Below are positions 30,280 through 38,678 of a DNA stretch of 64,000 nucleotides, one piece after another. Position 1 is the first letter of the stretch. Each line of letters begins with the position of its first letter. The position numbers were made by a program, and so were the translations under genes. The notes beneath the pieces were generated by a model. It searched no databases and was not told the DNA's origin. It saw only the letters and a program-made list of their open reading frames with translations. Source of the DNA: Leeuwenhoekiella polynyae (GTDB lineage: Bacteria > Bacteroidota > Bacteroidia > Flavobacteriales > Flavobacteriaceae); assembly GCF_004104075.1 (NCBI RefSeq), contig NZ_QOVK01000004.1:124001-188000 (forward strand), in the 5' to 3' direction.

Positions 30280-31650
30280 ATGGAACGCTTAAATCATTGG
30301 ATTGCAGAGGCTGCTTCGTTTGTTTGGGGACTACCACTTTTAGTATTGCTTATTGGTGGCGGCTTGTATCTTCTGGTTTATTCTCGATTTCTTCCTTTTA
30401 AATATTTTGGCCATGCTATAGACGTGCTTCGGGGTAAATATGATAATCCCGATGATCCAGGCGAAATCAGCCATTTCCAAGCATTAATGACTGCCTTATC
30501 GTCTACTGTGGGTATGGGGAACATTGCTGGTGTTGCAGTGGCTATTGCTGTGGGCGGTCCCGGTGCAGTTTTCTGGATGTGGGTGAGTGCTATCGTAGGG
30601 ATGAGTACTAAATTTTTTACCTGTACGCTGGCTATTTTGTATCGAGGTAAAGATGATTCTGGTGCAATACAAGGTGGCCCTATGTATTTTATTACAGAAG
30701 GTCTCGGAAAAACATGGAAACCACTTGCTGCTTTTTTTAGTATTGCCGGTCTTGTTGGAGCTTTACCGGTTTTTAATGTAAATCAACTCACGCAAGCTAT
30801 AAATGATATTCTGCTAATTCCTAATGGAATTGCAAAAGGTTTTTCTACAGATTTGACCATAGGTATTGTGCTCGCTGTGATAACAGGAATTGTAATTCTT
30901 GGTGGTCTCAATCGCATCAGTAAGACGGCTTCTAAGATCGTTCCGGGGATGGTTGTACTGTATTTTTTAGCAGTGCTTGTTATTTTGTTTATCAATGCTT
31001 CTGAAGTACCCAGATATTTCAAACTAATTTTTACAGATGCTTTTGCAGCAAATAATTATACCGGTGATCCAATGTTGGGAGGCATTTTAGGAGCTTTAAT
31101 TATTTTAGGTATTCGCAGAGGAGCTTTCTCTAACGAAGCCGGAATAGGTACGGCGCCTATGGCACACGGTGCAGCAAAAACCGAAGAACCTATTCGAGAA
31201 GGATTAGTAGCAATGTTGGGCCCCTTTATAGATACTATTATTGTATGTACGCTAACGGCTTTGAGCATTCTGGTTACCGGAGTTTGGCAAAGCAGTGATG
31301 CAAATGGTGTAAGTCTTACCGCAAAAGCTTTCTCAGATGCTATGCCGGGCTTTGGTTCTTATGTATTATTAATTTGTATTGCGGTATTCAGCATTAGCTC
31401 TTTATTTTCATATTCATACTATGGTACAAAGTGTTTATCGTTTTTAGTAGGAACACGCTACAAACACCTCTACAATTACTTTTATATAAGCAGTATTCTA
31501 ATTGGAGCAACTACTTCTCTAAGTTTAATGATCAATCTTATTGACACTTTTTTTGCACTTATGGCGATCCCTACAATGCTTGCAACCCTTATTCTCGCTC
31601 CTAAAGTAATGACAAAGGCAAGAGTGTATTTTAAGATGATTAAAAGTTAA
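30280..31650 (+). CDS. Alanine/glycine:sodium symporter (AGCS family)
   Basis: A 456-residue transporter with about ten to eleven membrane helices. Family signatures: FQALMTALSSTVGMGNIAGVA (ion and substrate site), AVFWMWVSAIVGMSTKF, IQGGPMYFI, and RRGAFSNEAGIGTAPMAHGAA. It imports alanine or glycine with Na+. It starts about ten bases after the purC terminator. The downstream spacer carries the direct repeats of the next operon. Confidence 0.92.
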   Translation: MERLNHWIAEAASFVWGLPLLVLLIGGGLYLLVYSRFLPFKYFGHAIDVLRGKYDNPDDPGEISHFQALMTALSSTVGMGNIAGVAVAIAVGGPGAVFWMWVSAIVGMSTKFFTCTLAILYRGKDDSGAIQGGPMYFITEGLGKTWKPLAAFFSIAGLVGALPVFNVNQLTQAINDILLIPNGIAKGFSTDLTIGIVLAVITGIVILGGLNRISKTASKIVPGMVVLYFLAVLVILFINASEVPRYFKLIFTDAFAANNYTGDPMLGGILGALIILGIRRGAFSNEAGIGTAPMAHGAAKTEEPIREGLVAMLGPFIDTIIVCTLTALSILVTGVWQSSDANGVSLTAKAFSDAMPGFGSYVLLICIAVFSISSLFSYSYYGTKCLSFLVGTRYKHLYNYFYISSILIGATTSLSLMINLIDTFFALMAIPTMLATLILAPKVMTKARVYFKMIKS

Positions 31651-31660
31651 TAAAAACCAT

Positions 31661-31695
31661 TCGTCTACACTTAACTGCAACTCGTCTACACTTAA
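31661..31695 (+). promoter_or_regulatory. Two identical 14-bp direct repeats, 21-bp period (putative LytTR operator)
   Basis: TCGTCTACACTTAA occurs at 31661-31674 and again, without change, at 31682-31695. The period of 21 bases (two helical turns) is what LytTR-type regulators such as AgrA use. It lies about 100 bases before the first gene of the operon that encodes a LytTR regulator, and a two-mismatch copy lies at 38362 after that operon. Self-regulation is an inference. Confidence 0.6.
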
Positions 31696-31795
31696 TGCCG
31701 TTTTCAACGTCTTTTGAAAGTATTGGATTCACTTTTATTGAAATTTGTACACTAACCCAACTTAAATCTCGACTATCGAGTAAAAACCCTATAAA

Positions 31796-32212
31796 ATGCG
31801 CAAACGAGTATTATCTATTTTGCTTATTGAAGATGACCGTATTGAGGTTATGAAACTCAAACGTGTACTTTCTAAAAATCAATTGAAACACCAGTTGAAC
31901 GAAGCTAAGAATGGTGAAGAAGCCTTAGATGTATTGCGTGACAAAAGCAAATTGCCAGACATCATTCTTCTGGATCTCAATATGCCTAAGATTAACGGAA
32001 TAGAATTTTTAAAAATTTTAAAAAACGATCCTGTACTAAAATATATTCCTACGGTAATTCTAACAACTTCTAATAATCATAATGATGTAAAGCAGTGTTA
32101 TGAGATAGGTATTGCAGGATACATATTAAAACCTTTAAAATATGAAGATTACGTAGATAAAATAAATGGTTTGTTGGAGTATTGGAGTCTTAATGAGTTA
32201 ATTCATTTTTAA
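31796..32212 (+). CDS. Single-domain response regulator (CheY-like)
   Basis: A 138-residue receiver domain with no output domain. Acidic pocket IEDD (11-14), phospho-acceptor D60 in ILLDLNMP, Thr in LTTSNN and Lys in ILKPLKY. The 'DPVLKYIPTVILTTSN' style is that of Rcp1-like regulators that serve soluble PAS/GAF kinases. First gene of the H-NOX/FIST operon; its TAA shares a base with the ATG of the H-NOX gene. It could be a phosphate sink or an additional target of the two kinases or of the Hpt protein. Confidence 0.92.
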   Translation: MRKRVLSILLIEDDRIEVMKLKRVLSKNQLKHQLNEAKNGEEALDVLRDKSKLPDIILLDLNMPKINGIEFLKILKNDPVLKYIPTVILTTSNNHNDVKQCYEIGIAGYILKPLKYEDYVDKINGLLEYWSLNELIHF

Positions 32213-32778
32213 TGAAGGGAATTGTATTTACAGAATTTTTGGAGTTAGTAGAAGAGAAGTTTGGGTTAGAGATGGTAGACGATATCATCACTGCTTCTGA
32301 GTTAGAATCAGGCGGAGCATATACTGCTGTGGGTACTTATAAATTTTCAGAAATGGTACAGCTGCTTACCCATTTAAGTGAGCGCACCCAGTTGTCTGTA
32401 GATGATTTATTGTATACCTATGCATTGCATTTTTTTAAGGTTATTCAGCGCAGCTACCCGGGATTGTTAAATACCTACTCAGATCCTTTAGAATTGATTG
32501 CTTCTATAGAGAATCATATACACGTTGAAGTGCGTAAAATTTACCCTGATGCGCAGCTTCCTGTTTTTAAAATTGTAAAAAGGTCAGAAAATACATTAAT
32601 TTTAGATTATCTTTCTAGCAGAGCGATGTATAGTTTTGGATTAGGATTGATGCACGAGTCGTTCAATTATTTTAATAAGAATTTTAAAATAGATTTTGAA
32701 AAGATAAAAGAAGATGGGACTTATGTACGATTTTTTATAGTCAACACAGATGAAAACAGCAAATCCGGATCTATATAA
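32212..32778 (+). CDS. H-NOX (heme nitric oxide/oxygen binding) sensor protein
   Basis: A 188-residue stand-alone H-NOX domain. Diagnostic residues are present: the N-terminal MKGIVFTEFLELVEEKFG, YTAVGTYKFSEM, the proximal heme ligand H104 in IHVEVRKIYP, and the heme-propionate motif YxSxR as YLSSR (133-137). The position matching the O2-stabilising distal tyrosine of the Thermoanaerobacter protein (its Y140) is F142 here, suggesting selectivity for NO over O2. In studied bacteria H-NOX controls a partner kinase; the kinase gene here overlaps it by 29 bases. Confidence 0.93.
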   Translation: MKGIVFTEFLELVEEKFGLEMVDDIITASELESGGAYTAVGTYKFSEMVQLLTHLSERTQLSVDDLLYTYALHFFKVIQRSYPGLLNTYSDPLELIASIENHIHVEVRKIYPDAQLPVFKIVKRSENTLILDYLSSRAMYSFGLGLMHESFNYFNKNFKIDFEKIKEDGTYVRFFIVNTDENSKSGSI

Positions 32779-35125
32779 AAGAATTATTGAAAGAGAGCGT
32801 AAAGCCCGTAAAATCGCAGAATCTATTCTTGAAGAAAAATCTTCTGAACTTTACACGTTATCAAACAAATTAAAAAAATCTAACGAGCGACTTCAATCTT
32901 TAATCTATCAGAAAAATTCTGAGTTAGAAGGCTTATTTGAAAATCTTGCTGATGCTTATGTTGTTATTGATCTAGAGGGACACGTTCTTAAAATGAATGA
33001 TGCCGCAGTTTCTTTAATGGGCTATGATTCTAGTAAAGAGTTAGTTTTTTTACCTAAAATGGTCGCTAAAGGCGAGCAAGAACATGTTTCTGAGGCATTT
33101 GCAAGTTTACTTAAGACCAGTAGCATTACTAATTTTAAAGTAAATATTATTACAAAAAGTGGAGAAACCCGCTTGGTTCACATAAATGCAAGCACCATTC
33201 TTGACGAAAATAACCTTGCTGTTGCAGCACAAGGCATTGTAAGAGATATTACTTCTGAAGAAAAAAAGGCAAAGATTATTGAAGAGCAAAAGCGACAACT
33301 TGAGTTTATCGTTAATAGTTCACCACTAGGAATTGCGCTTACTACAAATGGCCTCATAGAAAAATGTAATGATAGTTTTACACGAATTCTGGGATATCCT
33401 GAATCGGAAATTCTAGGTAAAAATCTAAAGTCTATTACTATTGCTGCTGAAGAATCTGATTATGAATTTCAACGAGAAGCCTTACATAATGGTAAATTAG
33501 ATTCATTTGTAGCTACCCAAAAATACATAACAAATAGCGGTCAGATCATAAGAACAAAAATCAACGTAAGTGCTATTCGACATAGTGATTCTGTAATGCA
33601 TCAACAGGAGGTGATCACTATTGAAGATGTAACTAATGAACTGTTGGCAAAAGAAAAGTTGGTTGAGTCAGAAAACAGACTTTCAGCTTTGATTTTAAAA
33701 CTACAAAGCGGTGTTTTATTAGAAGATGAAAACCGAAAAGTAGTGCTTACAAATCCTATGTTTTGCGACATATTTGGTATTCCGGCTTCACCTGAAGATA
33801 TGGTTGGAGCAGATTGTGATGCGGCTGCAGAACAAAGTAAAATCCTCTTTAAAAAACCCGAAGAATTTATAAAACGAATTTCAGAAATACTGGATAAGAG
33901 AGAAATCGTTACAGCAGAAGAACTGGAGCTTGTCGACGGAAGGGTGTTTGAACGTGATTTTATTCCTATTTATTCTAACAGGAACTACACTGGGCATCTT
34001 TGGAGTTATACCGATGTAACACTTAAAAGGCGTTATAAAAACAACCTGCAGCAGCAAAAAGAGAAGTATAGCAACATCATAGCTAATATGAATCTGGGTT
34101 TACTAGAAGTAGATACAGAAGATCATATTCTAATGGTAAATCAAAGTTTTTGTGATCTGAGCGGATATTCAGAAACTGAACTGGTAGGACAAAAAGCAGC
34201 AGAATTATTTATGCCTCCTAAGAGTAAAAAAATAATTCTAGATAAATTCAAATCTAGAAAACAAGGTGTTTCTGATTCTTATGAAGTTGAGGTATATCGC
34301 AAAAATGGAGTAAAAAGGAACTGGCTCATAAGCGGTGCTCCCAATTTTGATATCAATGGAAAATTAGTTGGAAGTATAGGGATTCACCTTGATATTACAG
34401 AATTAAAAAATCTAGAAGCTCAAAAGGAAAAACTACTCAAAACTTTAGAAAAGAGTAATATAGAATTGCAAGAATACGCACATGTAGTATCTCATGATTT
34501 AAAGAGTCCGTTGAGAAGCATCAATGCTTTAGCTAGTTGGATCAAAGAAGATAATGCAGAAACACTTGATGAACAAAGTCTTGAAAATTTTAGCATTTTA
34601 GAAACAACACTGGAGAAGATGGAAAGTTTAATTTCAGGCATTCTCAATTACAGTAGTATTCAGCTTGAAAGCATACACGACGAGGCTACAGACGTTAACG
34701 AGGTTTTAAGCGATATTAAAGATCTTATTTTTATACCAGAACATATAGAACTTATAACCGCAAACGAGCTGCCGGTTATTCAAGTAGATAAAACTCGTTT
34801 GCAACAAGTTTTACAGAATCTAATAGGTAATGCTATTCGCTATTGCGATAAAGAAAAAGGCTACGTCAAAATACATTATACCGAAGAAAAGGAGCGTCAT
34901 ATTTTTGCTGTTGAAGATAATGGGATTGGGATAGAGAAGGCATATCATCATAAGATATTCAATATTTTTCAGTCACTTACAGATCATAAAGAATCTACCG
35001 GTATCGGACTATCAATCGTAAAGAAAATCGTGAACCTGTATGAAGGTGATATCTGGTTAGAAAGTACTCCGGGATTGGGTAGTACATTTTATTTTAGTCT
35101 AAAAAAAGAGCATAATGAAGATTAG
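32750..35125 (+). CDS. Soluble multi-PAS hybrid-less histidine kinase (H-NOX partner)
   Basis: A 791-residue cytoplasmic kinase with no membrane segment. Order: N-terminal coiled coil rich in charge (ERERKARKIAESILEEKS, 14-31), four PAS domains (about 60-172, 180-300, 305-428, 435-555; each begins with an 'LFENLADAYVVID'-type motif), HisKA with H582 in YAHVVSHDLKSP, and an ATPase domain with LQNLIGNAIRY, EDNGIGI and TGIGLSIVKK. No receiver domain is attached. The overlap with the H-NOX frame and the operon order make it the likely H-NOX effector. Overlaps the FIST gene by eleven bases. Confidence 0.92.
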   Translation: MKTANPDLYKRIIERERKARKIAESILEEKSSELYTLSNKLKKSNERLQSLIYQKNSELEGLFENLADAYVVIDLEGHVLKMNDAAVSLMGYDSSKELVFLPKMVAKGEQEHVSEAFASLLKTSSITNFKVNIITKSGETRLVHINASTILDENNLAVAAQGIVRDITSEEKKAKIIEEQKRQLEFIVNSSPLGIALTTNGLIEKCNDSFTRILGYPESEILGKNLKSITIAAEESDYEFQREALHNGKLDSFVATQKYITNSGQIIRTKINVSAIRHSDSVMHQQEVITIEDVTNELLAKEKLVESENRLSALILKLQSGVLLEDENRKVVLTNPMFCDIFGIPASPEDMVGADCDAAAEQSKILFKKPEEFIKRISEILDKREIVTAEELELVDGRVFERDFIPIYSNRNYTGHLWSYTDVTLKRRYKNNLQQQKEKYSNIIANMNLGLLEVDTEDHILMVNQSFCDLSGYSETELVGQKAAELFMPPKSKKIILDKFKSRKQGVSDSYEVEVYRKNGVKRNWLISGAPNFDINGKLVGSIGIHLDITELKNLEAQKEKLLKTLEKSNIELQEYAHVVSHDLKSPLRSINALASWIKEDNAETLDEQSLENFSILETTLEKMESLISGILNYSSIQLESIHDEATDVNEVLSDIKDLIFIPEHIELITANELPVIQVDKTRLQQVLQNLIGNAIRYCDKEKGYVKIHYTEEKERHIFAVEDNGIGIEKAYHHKIFNIFQSLTDHKESTGIGLSIVKKIVNLYEGDIWLESTPGLGSTFYFSLKKEHNED

Positions 35126-36248
35126 ACAAGGGAGTCTCAATAAAGCCAGAATATGGAAACATCTCAACGAAGATGTAAAACTTGACGCACCTCTTGTTCT
35201 CATTTTTGCGAACAGATACCTGCTGGAAGAAGATTATATTTTTAGCACAATGCGGCATCTGTTTCCTAATGGGCATCTAGTTTATGCATCTACATCAGGA
35301 GAAATTTTGGGCGATCAGGTAAGTGATGGTGGGCTCGCTTACACGGCCATAGAATTTGAGAATTCTGTGTTTAAAATAGTTTCTGAAAATATTTTGAATC
35401 ACGAGAAAAACAGTATAGAAACAGGTAATATTCTTGCTCAAAAAATAGAAAAAAAAAACCTTAAACACCTTTTTGTAATTGCAGAGGGTAGTTATATAAA
35501 TGGCAATGATCTCATAAAAGGTTTGGAGTCTGTGTTGCCTGATGAGGTTGCCGTGACCGGAGGACTATGTGGAGATGATGCACGGTTTGAAAAAACCTTG
35601 TGTGGATATAATACTAAAGCAAAAGCGGGGGAGGTGATTGCTATTGCATTGTATGGAGAATCGCTTGAAATTAGTTTTTCTAACTACGGCGGTTGGTTTG
35701 CTTTTGGCCCCGAGCGTACAATTACAAAATCTACAGGTAACATTCTTTATGAGTTAGATGATAAACCGGCTTTAGACTTATACAAAACCTACCTAGGGGA
35801 TAAAGCAGCAGAGTTACCGCAAGCTGCTCTGTTTTATCCCTTGAGTGTGCATTCTGCGGAAAAAGAACATCCGGTTGTACGCACTATTTTAAATATTGAT
35901 GAGACCGACAATGCGATGATTTTAGCAGGGGATGTTCCCGAAGGTTCGCGGGTTAAACTGATGATGGCTACAGTAGACGGTATTGTAGATGGTGCGCTTG
36001 AAGCGGCAAAAGCCGCAGTTGCAAAACGAGAAAGTGCAGCCCAACTTGCCATTTTAGTGAGTTGTGTGGGTAGAAAACTGGTAATGGATCAACGGTCTGA
36101 AGAAGAAGTAGAAGAAGTTATAGAAATCGTGGGTAGTCAGGCAGCAATTACCGGCTTTTACAGTTATGGTGAGTTGTCCCCTTTTGCCAATGAGCGCAGC
36201 TGCGAACTGCATAATCAGACTATGACATTGACCTTAATAAGCGAGTAA
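35115..36248 (+). CDS. FIST-domain protein, NosP-like candidate second NO sensor
   Basis: A 377-residue cytoplasmic protein with FIST_N (about 25-215; VYASTSGEILGDQ, TGGLCGDDARF) and FIST_C (about 220-365; LYKTYLGDKA, FYPLSV, ILAGDVPEGSRVKLM, LVSCVGRKLVM). FIST proteins of the NosP group bind heme and sense NO, controlling an adjacent kinase. I can see the domain but not prove heme binding; candidate His residues include those in MRHLFPNGH and VHSAEKEH. It lies between the two kinases, abutting the start of the second. Confidence 0.88.
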   Translation: MKIRQGSLNKARIWKHLNEDVKLDAPLVLIFANRYLLEEDYIFSTMRHLFPNGHLVYASTSGEILGDQVSDGGLAYTAIEFENSVFKIVSENILNHEKNSIETGNILAQKIEKKNLKHLFVIAEGSYINGNDLIKGLESVLPDEVAVTGGLCGDDARFEKTLCGYNTKAKAGEVIAIALYGESLEISFSNYGGWFAFGPERTITKSTGNILYELDDKPALDLYKTYLGDKAAELPQAALFYPLSVHSAEKEHPVVRTILNIDETDNAMILAGDVPEGSRVKLMMATVDGIVDGALEAAKAAVAKRESAAQLAILVSCVGRKLVMDQRSEEEVEEVIEIVGSQAAITGFYSYGELSPFANERSCELHNQTMTLTLISE

Positions 36249-37319
36249 ATGAACCCACTTTTAAAAAGACAAATACGCAAGCACCTTCAGGAAGAAGGTA
36301 TCGTAATAGATGAGAAGTTTTCGGTCTTTTTGAATGCAGTGAGTAGTTCATATGCTAATTATGAAGAGCAGTTGTTAATGGTGCAACGTGCAATGTCTTT
36401 AAGTTCTGACGAGTTAGTCGAGGCTAATAAGAATTTAAAGAAAGAAAGTACACAGCAGCGTGAGATCATAGACAGTCTCACCCAGACTATCGCTAAACTT
36501 CAGAAATACGGAAATGCAGAAGAACTTCCTAAAGTCACCGAAAATAAAAAGCTAGACGGGCTAGAGCTTGCGCGAGTTATAGAAAGTCAAACTAGAGAAA
36601 TTATCAACTCTAATCAACAGCGTCAGGCTTTATTAGAAAAATTAGAAAAACAGAATAAGGAGCTTAATGATTATGCTCACGTTGTTTCACACGATTTAAA
36701 ATCTCCTTTAAACAATATCAATGCGCTAACTAATTTTATTCTAGAAGACGGAAATATCGATGAAGATGCTTCGCAAAATCTCAATTTGATTTTAGAGCAC
36801 GTAGAGCATATGCATAGTCTTATTGAAGGAATTCTGGAGTATTCTGCCGTAGATAAAGCTGATGGTGACAGTTACACCTTAGATCTGGATATTCTGGTCA
36901 AAAATCTTTTAGCTACGATGCACATCCCTGAAAATTTTGAAGTAGAAATTCAAAAAGAACTACCACTCGTTGAGGGTAACTCTTTTAGATTTCAGCAGTT
37001 ATTTCAAAATTTAATACAAAATGCTATTCAGTATAATGACAAGGAGCTGGGGCATATAGCAATAGGATTTGAAGATGGCGTAAATCATTTTAAATTCAGC
37101 ATAAAAGATAATGGTAAGGGGATAGAAAAACAGTATCATGATAAGATTTTTCAGGTATTTCAAACGCTTGAAGATGTTTCCAAATCGAAGGGAATAGGGC
37201 TTTCTATCGTCTCTAAAATCATCAAATTTTATGGCGGAAAAATCTGGCTTGAATCTCAAATCGGAGAGGGAACTACTTTCTATTTCAAAATTCCAAAATA
37301 CAGCAATGGACAAGCCTAA
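36249..37319 (+). CDS. Soluble histidine kinase (NahK-like, FIST partner)
   Basis: A 356-residue cytoplasmic kinase. The N-terminal region MNPLLKRQIRKHL ... FLNAVSSSYANYEEQLLMVQRAMSLSSDEL is the type of leader found in kinases encoded beside FIST/NosP genes. A coiled coil (about 60-140) leads to HisKA with H148 in YAHVVSHDLKSP, then an ATPase domain (LFQNLIQNAIQYND, KDNGKGI, GIGLSIVSKI). The catalytic half is very like that of the first kinase, so both may serve the same downstream partner. The ATG follows the FIST stop with no gap. Confidence 0.9.
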   Translation: MNPLLKRQIRKHLQEEGIVIDEKFSVFLNAVSSSYANYEEQLLMVQRAMSLSSDELVEANKNLKKESTQQREIIDSLTQTIAKLQKYGNAEELPKVTENKKLDGLELARVIESQTREIINSNQQRQALLEKLEKQNKELNDYAHVVSHDLKSPLNNINALTNFILEDGNIDEDASQNLNLILEHVEHMHSLIEGILEYSAVDKADGDSYTLDLDILVKNLLATMHIPENFEVEIQKELPLVEGNSFRFQQLFQNLIQNAIQYNDKELGHIAIGFEDGVNHFKFSIKDNGKGIEKQYHDKIFQVFQTLEDVSKSKGIGLSIVSKIIKFYGGKIWLESQIGEGTTFYFKIPKYSNGQA

Positions 37320-37623
37320 TCTTGATAAAATAAAAGAAATAGCGAGTGATCAGCTTGAATTTCAGAAAGAAATGATAGCGATCATAAAAGAAGAGTTACC
37401 TGTTGAGGTTGAAATTTACCGCAAAAACCTGAATGCAAAGTATTTTCTTAGATCTGCAGAAGATGTTCATAAATTAAAACATAAAATAAGTATCTTGAAC
37501 ATGGCAAATAGCTACGAGCTTGCCACAAACTATGAGAATGAACTACGAGCCGATAACCCTAAACTGGCCGGGCAATTTGAAGACACACTTCAAAATATGC
37601 TTGATTTTGTAGCAAAATTGTAA
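37306..37623 (+). CDS. Histidine phosphotransfer (Hpt) protein
   Basis: A 105-residue all-helical protein starting MDKPNLDKIKEIASDQ at the ATG at 37306. The segment AEDVHKLKHKISILNM has the form of an Hpt phospho-site (consensus H-x-L-K-G), with H55 the likely acceptor and H59 an alternative; the usual Gly after Lys is His here. A longer frame from 37231 is the kinase gene in another frame and is not used. It overlaps the kinase by 14 bases and precedes the LytTR gene by seven, as expected for a relay between them. Confidence 0.82.
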   Translation: MDKPNLDKIKEIASDQLEFQKEMIAIIKEELPVEVEIYRKNLNAKYFLRSAEDVHKLKHKISILNMANSYELATNYENELRADNPKLAGQFEDTLQNMLDFVAKL

Positions 37624-37630
37624 CCTACTT

Positions 37631-38344
37631 ATGAATTGTATTATTATTGATGATGAGACTTTGGCACGCGCTATAATTCGTAATCATTGTGCAAAAGCTG
37701 ATAATTTAGTTGTTTTAGAAGAATATTCAAATGCTATAGCTGCTATAAAATATTTAAATCAGCACACAGTAGATCTCATTTTTCTGGATATACATATGCC
37801 AGATTTTACAGGTTTTGATTTTATTCAGACATTAAAGAATCCGCCAAAAATTATTTTAACAACTTCAGACCGTAATTTTGCAATTGAAGCTTTTGAGTAT
37901 GATTGTATTGTAGATTATTTAGTAAAACCAGTTGAGTTACCCCGGTTTCTCAAGGCAGTTCAAAAGGCAGAACAATTTAAACCGGTCACAGAAAAAACGG
38001 TTGAGAATGTAACAAAAAAGAATGATTCAGAAGGTAATGATCTCTATGTGAATATTGACCGCAGGTTAATCAAAATCAACTTTGATAGTATTTTAATTAT
38101 TGAAGCAAAGGGTGATTACATTCTTATTAAGACGGAAGGTAAAAATTATACGGTACATTCTACTCTAAAAAAGATAGAAGACAAACTACCGGAAAGTAAA
38201 TTCTTAAAAATTCACCGGTCTTATGTGATTAATTTCCATAAGATTATCGATATAGAAGACAACAGTGTGTTGATAGCAAAAGATGTTATACCCATAAGTC
38301 GCTCTAACAGACCTATTTTAATGAAAAGACTCAATTTGCTTTAA
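37631..38344 (+). CDS. LytTR-family response regulator (output of the NO relay)
   Basis: A 237-residue DNA-binding regulator. The receiver domain (1-120) has IIDDE (5-9), phospho-acceptor D53 in FLDIHMP and Lys in VDYLVKPVE. The C-terminal LytTR domain (about 132-236) shows LYVNIDRRLIKINFDSILII, GDYILIKTEGKNYTVHSTLK, FLKIHRSYVIN and DVIPISRSNRP. It is the only DNA-binding protein of the operon. The direct repeats upstream of the operon and the half-site after this gene are candidate targets. Confidence 0.92.
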   Translation: MNCIIIDDETLARAIIRNHCAKADNLVVLEEYSNAIAAIKYLNQHTVDLIFLDIHMPDFTGFDFIQTLKNPPKIILTTSDRNFAIEAFEYDCIVDYLVKPVELPRFLKAVQKAEQFKPVTEKTVENVTKKNDSEGNDLYVNIDRRLIKINFDSILIIEAKGDYILIKTEGKNYTVHSTLKKIEDKLPESKFLKIHRSYVINFHKIIDIEDNSVLIAKDVIPISRSNRPILMKRLNLL

Positions 38345-38361
38345 AGGCTTTTACTTACCGC

Positions 38362-38375
38362 TCATCTACACCTAA
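38362..38375 (+). promoter_or_regulatory. Near-copy of the 14-bp operator repeat
   Basis: TCATCTACACCTAA differs from the upstream repeat TCGTCTACACTTAA at two positions. It lies 17 bases after the LytTR stop and about 70 bases before the small ORF at 38444. A second copy one 21-base period away is not clear, so this may be a half-site. Confidence 0.4.
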
Positions 38376-38443
38376 TTACCAACTAACGATTAATTAATAA
38401 ATCTTTATAAGGCTCTTCTAATTTTAAATTCAAATTCAAGATT

Positions 38444-38611
38444 ATGAGACGATTCCTGTTACTAAGTCTATTATTTATTACAGGTATTAGTATTACTCGA
38501 AATTTTCATTTTTTAGGGGATTACTCTTTTAATAGTACTTCGCTTTATTGTGAAGAAGAAATTATGTGGTTACAACATATTTTGGAAATACTTATAAGGG
38601 GAAATTTGTGA
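38444..38611 (+). CDS. Putative small secreted peptide (55 residues)
   Basis: ATG frame MRRFLLLSLLFITGISITRN and a further 35 residues, with a basic start and a 13-residue hydrophobic core typical of a signal peptide; the mature part contains one Cys and an acidic patch (YCEEEIMW). No homologue recognised. It lies between the operator half-site and a terminator, so the transcript unit ends right after it. It may be the last gene of the NO relay operon or a target of the LytTR regulator; it could also be a chance frame. Confidence 0.45.
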   Translation: MRRFLLLSLLFITGISITRNFHFLGDYSFNSTSLYCEEEIMWLQHILEILIRGNL

Positions 38612-38646
38612 TAAATTAGTTAGTTGTTTGTTTTTTGTTAGTTAGA

Positions 38647-38678
38647 AGGTGGCGCTTGGCAGGGCGCTGCCTTTTTTT
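38647..38678 (+). terminator. Rho-independent terminator after the small ORF
   Basis: Nine-pair stem AGGTGGCGC/GCGCTGCCT (two G-U pairs; 38647-38655 with 38664-38672) followed by seven T. It closes the transcription unit begun at the H-NOX operon or at the small ORF. Confidence 0.8.

Follow-up and report, generated by a model that had tools for sequence, protein, structure and literature searches.

The DNA between a sodium:alanine-symporter-like gene (stop at 31650) and a seven-gene operon (31796-38344) carries the 14-mer TCGTCTACACTTAA twice on the forward strand, at 31661-31674 and 31682-31695. The question raised by this locus is whether these copies are a regulatory site and, in that case, which protein binds them and which genes they control. 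As the earlier note had described it, two identical copies stand 21 bases apart, about 100 bases ahead of the first gene: they are free of mismatches, their starts are separated by 21 bp and the second ends 100 bp 5' of the ATG at 31796. Within the window, that is, the whole 64 kb stretch of DNA analysed here, they make up the sole exact 14-mer direct repeat with a start distance of 15-40 bp. When the window was shuffled 200 times with its dinucleotides preserved, 3 of the shuffles also had at least one exact pair of this kind, so that the window alone would not settle the question of chance. The half-site defined by conservation is longer than the 14-mer and comprises 18 bp, CCATTCGTC[T/G]ACACTTAA; in the window, the 14-mer is preceded by CCAT in the first copy and by CAAC in the second.

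The operon, located on contig C4 of a 4.8 Mb genome, unites an H-NOX protein, histidine kinases, response regulators and a FIST protein according to Pfam, and its gene order is kept in relatives (Table 1). The best NCBIfam match of the FIST protein is NosP, a weak one (55 bits against a cut-off of 450). The HPt-like protein, recognized by eye, has no match in Pfam or NCBIfam and probably starts at an inner ATG. In agreement with the claim that the LytTR regulator is the only DNA-binding protein of the operon, Pfam detects no other DNA-binding domain in the seven proteins. Against solved structures, a phmmer search with the LytTR domain gave one weak match (3d6w), and a profile of the whole LytTR protein matched mostly receiver domains.

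Table 1 Features of the locus and of an additional half-site (positions in the window unless a contig or locus is given)
Feature	Position	Strand	Basis or remark
Half-site R1, CCATTCGTCTACACTTAA, distal strong copy	31657..31674	+	sequence, family consensus; contains the first 14-mer (31661-31674)
Half-site R2, CAACTCGTCTACACTTAA, proximal strong copy	31678..31695	+	sequence, family consensus; contains the second 14-mer (31682-31695)
Possible degenerate third half-site R3	31700..31717	+	family columns 42-49 T..(n)CGAA, 21-bp register
Probable -7 box GAAATTTG (family TAnnTTTG)	31740..31747	+	58 bp from the first T of R2; offset histogram
CheY-like response regulator, first operon gene	31796..32212	+	Pfam Response_reg
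H-NOX haem NO-binding sensor	32212..32778	+	Pfam HNOB (PF07700), 129 bits
PAS-domain sensor histidine kinase	32750..35125	+	Pfam PAS, HisKA, HATPase_c
FIST protein, NosP-like	35115..36248	+	Pfam FIST, FIST_C; NCBIfam
Second histidine kinase	36249..37319	+	Pfam HisKA, HATPase_c
HPt-like phosphotransfer protein (by eye)	37231..37623	+	position kept in relatives
LytTR response regulator, which would bind the repeats	37631..38344	+	Pfam LytTR (70.6 bits), Response_reg
Second site of the promoter type: half-site CCGCTCATCTACACCTAA followed at +21 by the weak half CCAACTAACGATTAATTA	38358..38396	+	sequence, profile
-7 box TAATTTTA of the second site	38419..38426	+	57 bp from the first T of the site
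55-aa open frame, remnant of a T9SS-type secreted protein and former target of the second site	38443..38610	+	
Intrinsic-terminator-like hairpin 3' of the remnant	38644..38675	+	
Half-site CCACTTACCGACACTTA	L171 T0 1434 (-); L172 T0 3613 (+); own genome C7:61380-61396		

A lack of conservation ahead of orthologous operons had been named beforehand as the finding that would speak against a regulatory site. Relatives were collected by scanning genome contigs with the H-NOX protein, and the best 80 of 266 were used (L031-L110). These loci are mostly flavobacterial by title, with one MAG titled Saprospiraceae, and the nearest named one is that of Leeuwenhoekiella aestuarii (L031), whose H-NOX is 98% identical. 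A LytTR regulator (63-93% identical) is present in 77 of these best 80 loci; L072 and L083 are without it, and the L043 locus is cut by its contig end. With spacings of 10-31 allowed, the best pair stands at exactly 21 bp in 74 of the 81 operon upstream regions, window included. The logo draws on those 71 regions whose spacing is 21 and whose score is at least 21 (L075, L096 and L109 were omitted from the 74). It consists of CCATTCGTC[GT]ACACTTAA twice, strongly conserved and flanked by columns of near-zero information, followed by T...CGAA at columns 42-49, 21 bp past the second copy, and by TAnnTTT at columns 78-84. Since the two copies of L. aestuarii are not identical to each other, it is the motif and its spacing, rather than the identity of the copies, that are conserved. 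A 39-column matrix built from the 71 logo regions (threshold: score >12) has a match ahead of the operon in 77 of the 80 loci and in 76 of the 77 with LytTR in the operon, counts that include the 71 regions which trained the matrix. The loci without such a match are L072 and L083, which both lack LytTR, and L110, which has it. The repeats are therefore a real and widely conserved site, not a product of chance. In L110, a Polaribacter MAG, one site lies directly 3' of LytTR (L110:4487) and none 5' of the operon, so self-control may have been lost there and target control kept. In some Kordia and Polaribacter loci (L093, L096, L103, L071, L097 and L099) the context of the half-site shifts to CATTTCGTCTACACTTA and ACACTTTT ends; the motif has drifted in a lineage-specific way.

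The flavobacterial sigma-A -7 box is given as TAnnTTTG at -12 to -5 (PMC9723704). Its position relative to the half-sites was studied in 138 loci (L031-L110 and L142-L200, some of which overlap or share a genome) using an 18-column half-site matrix (units >12), in the construction of which the -7 box had no role. Counted from the first T of the half-site, the 355 units have nAnnTTTG at offsets 57 (43 times), 58 (60), 78 (54) and 79 (10); over the range 20-119, any other offset occurs at most 3 times. The pattern is similar when just the named loci are considered (279 units): 57 (38), 58 (32), 78 (52), 79 (10) and no more than 2 at other offsets. As 78/79 equal 57/58 plus 21, they correspond to an additional copy of the half-site upstream. 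The joint nAnnTTT occurs at 78/79 in just 28 of the 71 operon promoters, though its single columns are well conserved. These offsets suggest a promoter form made up of a strong half-site, 21 bp, a weak half-site and the -7 box. The putative R2-R3-(-7 box) arrangement is the one common to the other predicted target promoters, R1 is an additional copy at the promoter of the operon itself, and the original 14-mers are the two strong distal members of a predicted array of three half-sites. R3 is at +22 in the window (+21 in the family), is weak in Leeuwenhoekiella and has a poor half-site score (-8.7). The description of the site as a pair serving the NO relay operon was correct as to the pair and incomplete as to the third, weak half-site, the -7 box with its constant spacing, the weaker second site 3' of LytTR and the surface and polysaccharide targets discussed below. 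The repeats stand just 5' of the predicted core promoter, whose -7 box is 57/58 bp from the proximal strong half-site. The -33 region is not conspicuous; R3 ends near the expected position of this element and the midpoint between R2 and R3 falls at about -54, assuming that the -7 box begins at -12. A promoter profile built from 76 of 123 promoter units, none from the genus of the window, matches the R2 region in a search of the window (31682-31747, 20.2 bits, E 5e-5).

The distribution of this profile (match at E <=1e-4) was compared with that of the LytTR ortholog (E <=1e-70) in 199 genomes of the family, among which 66 have a profile match, 83 a LytTR ortholog and 78 an H-NOX match. The ortholog is found in 64 of the 66 genomes with a site and in 19 of the 133 others. 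Seen from the regulator, the profile matches in 64 of the 83 genomes with LytTR and in 2 of the 116 without it (G049 and G158; Fisher p 3.5e-32, these p-values being too small since the genomes share ancestry and some of them, at least 12 G genomes plus same-species named loci, gave sequences to the profile). Neither the contrast itself nor the test on the window's genome, whose genus gave no sequence to the profile, depends on this bias. Among the 19 LytTR-bearing genomes without a profile match, the operon upstream region was fetched for 17: a half-site scoring >12 was present in 13, a weaker one with a -7 box in 2 and none in 2 (G011 and G086). Of the other two, G197 has none on the H-NOX side and 12.9 in the LytTR region, and G170, with a 3-kb contig, has none. 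A 17-mer search gave matches in 23 of 40 genomes with LytTR, in 4 of 60 without it and in 0 of 100 in the reversed control. The four matches without LytTR (G004, G013, G069 and G096) were discarded as background: none has a -7 box at the offsets that were checked, and three are clearly inside long open frames, the fourth being in small ones. We also considered that the sites might track H-NOX, an association that was rejected as weaker (57 of the 66 site genomes) than that with LytTR. Among the LytTR-bearing genomes without an H-NOX match, some of them incomplete, the site is present in 8 of 9, and in G005 (L224), G047 (L335) and G115 (L337) the visible operon has no H-NOX while the sites are kept. 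The operons of L224, L335 and L337 have a CheY-like regulator, a kinase and LytTR, and their relay may have swapped or lost the NO sensor. In G131, two tandem copies of the LytTR ortholog (C1:1376298-1378238) are 70 and 69% identical to that of the window.

The site is not limited to the operon promoter. Beyond it, the 39-column matrix has 72 further matches (>12) in 50 of the 80 loci, 70 of them on the strand of the operon, and mononucleotide shuffles and the reversed matrix gave zero matches. In the 14 loci viewed in detail, the extra sites mostly lie 60-320 bp 5' of the same few kinds of genes: one 3' of LytTR for a protein of about 860 aa that ends in a T9SS sorting tail, one for a CAP lipoprotein, short open frames immediately 5' of the operon, and one for a small STAS protein, which is divergent from the gene of a TPR/beta-barrel protein. 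The STAS cluster comprises a flippase (Polysacc_synt_3), a GT1 glycosyltransferase, a GH5-like enzyme, a large membrane protein, a TPR outer-membrane-like protein and a dpm-like GT2. Its distance to the operon is often no more than about 20 kb in relatives, whereas the window's genome has the two on different contigs (cluster on C7, operon on C4). A Pel, Pga or Bcs identity was considered for this cluster and rejected: because PgaA is a weak match to the TPR protein (56 bits, cut-off 366) and NCBIfam has no match for the flippase or the large membrane protein, we simply call it polysaccharide-export-like. The TPR protein occurs in 53 of the 199 genomes, all 53 with LytTR, and the large membrane protein in 54, of which 53 have LytTR; in the exception, G106, the operon contig ends just past H-NOX. 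The earlier proposal of self-regulation by the LytTR of the operon thus gains support from the 21-bp spacing (74/81) and from the co-occurrence (64/83 against 2/116), although control restricted to the operon does not fit these additional sites.

In the window's own genome, the top match of the promoter profile is the promoter of the STAS-flippase genes (C7:61160-61229, E 1.2e-9), with a -7 box at 58 and a 17-mer match at C7:61213. It is followed by C12:112416 (E 0.006), dropped as it reads as coding by eye, by the window repeats (0.016 and 0.017) and by the site at 38362 (0.05). Another site, placed at about C7:58744 and with a 17-mer match at C7:58732, lies 80 bp 5' of GT1 and has its -7 box at 58. 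With 3 mismatches, the 17-mer had 36 matches in this genome and 30 in the reversed control; just C7:61213 and C7:58732 were kept, on the grounds of promoter lock, position and relatives, and the rest was regarded as background. A search for TCGTCTA-N14-TCGTCTA with 3 mismatches was useless, as it gave fewer matches (527) than its reversed control (1296). In other genomes, clusters that have been split keep sites at GT2 (L263, L266 and L271) or in the GT2/membrane-protein region (L262). The 20 regions fetched for this check were mostly profile matches far from LytTR, and several weaker matches among them, ahead of unrelated genes, may be background. Between the STAS and TPR genes, both Leeuwenhoekiella genomes have an extra half-site, CCACTTACCGACACTTA (score 17.6), with no -7 box at the usual distance. 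In L280 (T0 4178, minus strand), from the LytTR-bearing genome G082, a site with a -7 box is found 5' of a frame that by eye resembles a UDP-glucose/GDP-mannose dehydrogenase; a recombinase-like frame is adjacent.

The window has a second site of the promoter type behind LytTR (profile match 38362-38425, 17.0 bits; half-site score 16.7). The short open frame that follows it has an intact counterpart in L. aestuarii, an 811-aa T9SS/DUF4114 secreted protein (L031:16233-18668), whose codons 11-39 and 793-811 match back to back and in different frames at 38474-38560 and 38560-38616. The frame is what an internal deletion has left of such a protein, the promoter site being kept, and the weakness of the site suits a promoter that lost its gene. 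In Leeuwenhoekiella, the place of the 860-aa protein behind LytTR is occupied by this different T9SS protein, intact in L031 and deleted in the window's genome. The 860-aa protein of the relatives had no match in the window's own genome, a result that by itself shows nothing.

It is very probable that the repeats are tandem half-sites for the operon's own LytTR, with a predicted autoregulation and control of polysaccharide and T9SS surface genes by the NO relay. This reading is built on a site that is conserved, keeps its register and its lock to the promoter, co-occurs with the LytTR ortholog and recurs before the same genes. The predicted phosphorelay would respond to NO. The gas would be sensed by H-NOX, perhaps also by the FIST/NosP-like protein, and the kinases would alter the flow of phosphate that reaches LytTR by way of the CheY-like and HPt-like proteins. 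Dimers of phosphorylated LytTR would then bind the repeats from the same side of the DNA, the half-sites being two helical turns apart, and recruit RNA polymerase, which would raise the expression of their own operon (feedback). Through the same promoter form, the polysaccharide-export-like cluster and the T9SS-secreted surface proteins would be raised as well, with a possible role in biofilm formation or attachment.

Several other scenarios may explain the repeats. A chance repeat, or a mobile or structural one without regulatory meaning, would find some support in the pairs seen in shuffled windows, yet the letters, the spacing and the distance to the promoter are conserved across tens of genera and the control matches are zero; conservation rules it out, and we give it practically no credence. 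Another possibility is that the repeats are bound by a different DNA-binding protein, for instance another LytTR regulator, with the operon as just one target among others. The profile matches of G049 and G158, which lack the LytTR ortholog, would be in line with such a binder. Nevertheless, within one family the sites go together with this very ortholog (64 of 66 site genomes), they flank lytTR even where H-NOX is gone, and the ortholog itself (E 1e-70 or better) is present in just 2 of 198 genomes of the class, both belonging to the window's family, all of which makes another binder very unlikely.

Alternatively, the operon's LytTR could bind these sites as a repressor, phosphorylation relieving or setting the repression. 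There are precedents for both elements, since CoxC is a repressor that acts at three direct repeats (PMC11347149) and phosphorylation relieves the repression of the hno regulon by HnoC (PMC8738867); moreover, R3 ends near the would-be -33 element. Yet CoxC acts at an operator that overlaps the -35 box; here the strong half-sites are well upstream of that position, R2 being 57/58 bp from the -7 box, where activators of the AgrA type sit (PMC4227749). AgrA recognizes two direct repeats just 5' of its promoters, centered at about -60 (PMC4227749), close to the R2-R3 midpoint. This position would favor activation over repression, and a repressing LytTR appears unlikely. Activation by the operon's own LytTR is thus the reading retained here.

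This reading bears on how NO signals are processed in the family. In the literature consulted, the outputs of H-NOX/NO signaling are c-di-GMP enzymes, quorum-sensing relays or HnoC (PMC8738867). A GGDEF domain had no match in the window's genome and was above the cut-off in 1 of 31 genomes of the family (the control was positive in 8 of 14 genomes), and its near absence makes a c-di-GMP output unlikely here. On balance, we lean towards the view that Flavobacteriaceae, mostly devoid of c-di-GMP synthases, connect NO sensing by H-NOX/NosP directly to transcription via LytTR and a promoter with three half-sites and an AlgR-like core. LytTR would thereby turn on its own relay along with a dedicated polysaccharide-export-like cluster and T9SS surface proteins, as one co-inherited NO-to-surface (biofilm or attachment) system which would stay connected even where genes have moved or H-NOX has been lost. 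The form of the site is known (LytTR type); what seems new is the predicted wiring, an H-NOX/FIST relay that ends in LytTR and combines autoregulation with a surface and polysaccharide regulon. A literature search on H-NOX, LytTR, Bacteroidetes/Flavobacterium, exopolysaccharide and biofilm, with most subscription journals outside its scope, returned no description of it. NO is an inter-species signal in marine and algal settings. The wiring would tie this signal to surface and polysaccharide genes and provide a candidate H-NOX/NO output for a large marine family mostly without the c-di-GMP route; as the DNA site is defined and the targets are few, the regulon could be read from genome sequences.

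The comparison with known systems places the site among those of LytTR regulators. Published LytTR sites consist of two direct repeats of 9 bp separated by 10-13 bp (PMC11347149), and the earlier identification of direct, not inverted, repeats with a 21-22-base period as the LytTR form fits both these and the AgrA sites (PMC11347149, PMC4227749). As with AgrA and canonical LytTR regulators, repeats in direct orientation that recur every 21 bp or so stand 5' of a promoter (PMC4227749, PMC6769237, PMC11347149), and AgrA is a LytTR regulator that binds its repeats and controls its own operon, as is proposed here (PMC4227749, PMC6769237). The locus differs from the AgrA system in the letters of the half-site, the third half-site, the flavobacterial -7 box, the NO sensor that replaces the peptide input and the polysaccharide/T9SS targets. 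The Shewanella HnoC circuit, which has a transcriptional feedback loop, likewise gathers H-NOX, a kinase and response regulators in one operon (PMC8738867); in contrast to H-NOX circuits with HnoC or c-di-GMP enzymes, the predicted output is here a LytTR with its own promoter form. RcoM and CoxC respond to a diatomic gas and act at an operator of three direct repeats, as is predicted for this locus, but they are one-component CO sensors with repeats TTCNNGCA 12-13 bp apart, CoxC being a repressor (PMC11347149), whereas a multi-protein NO phosphorelay is predicted here. Finally, AlgR of Pseudomonas aeruginosa, a member of the LytTR family that controls alginate and biofilm (PMC4064291), has the core CCGTTCGTC, which equals 8 of the 9 letters of CCATTCGTC, a resemblance and a possible lead rather than a sign of membership. 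The AlgR sites described in that review are single and scattered up to hundreds of bp away, without the 21-bp tandem found here, and genes for extracellular polysaccharides are among the AlgR targets (PMC4064291) as well as among the predicted targets here.
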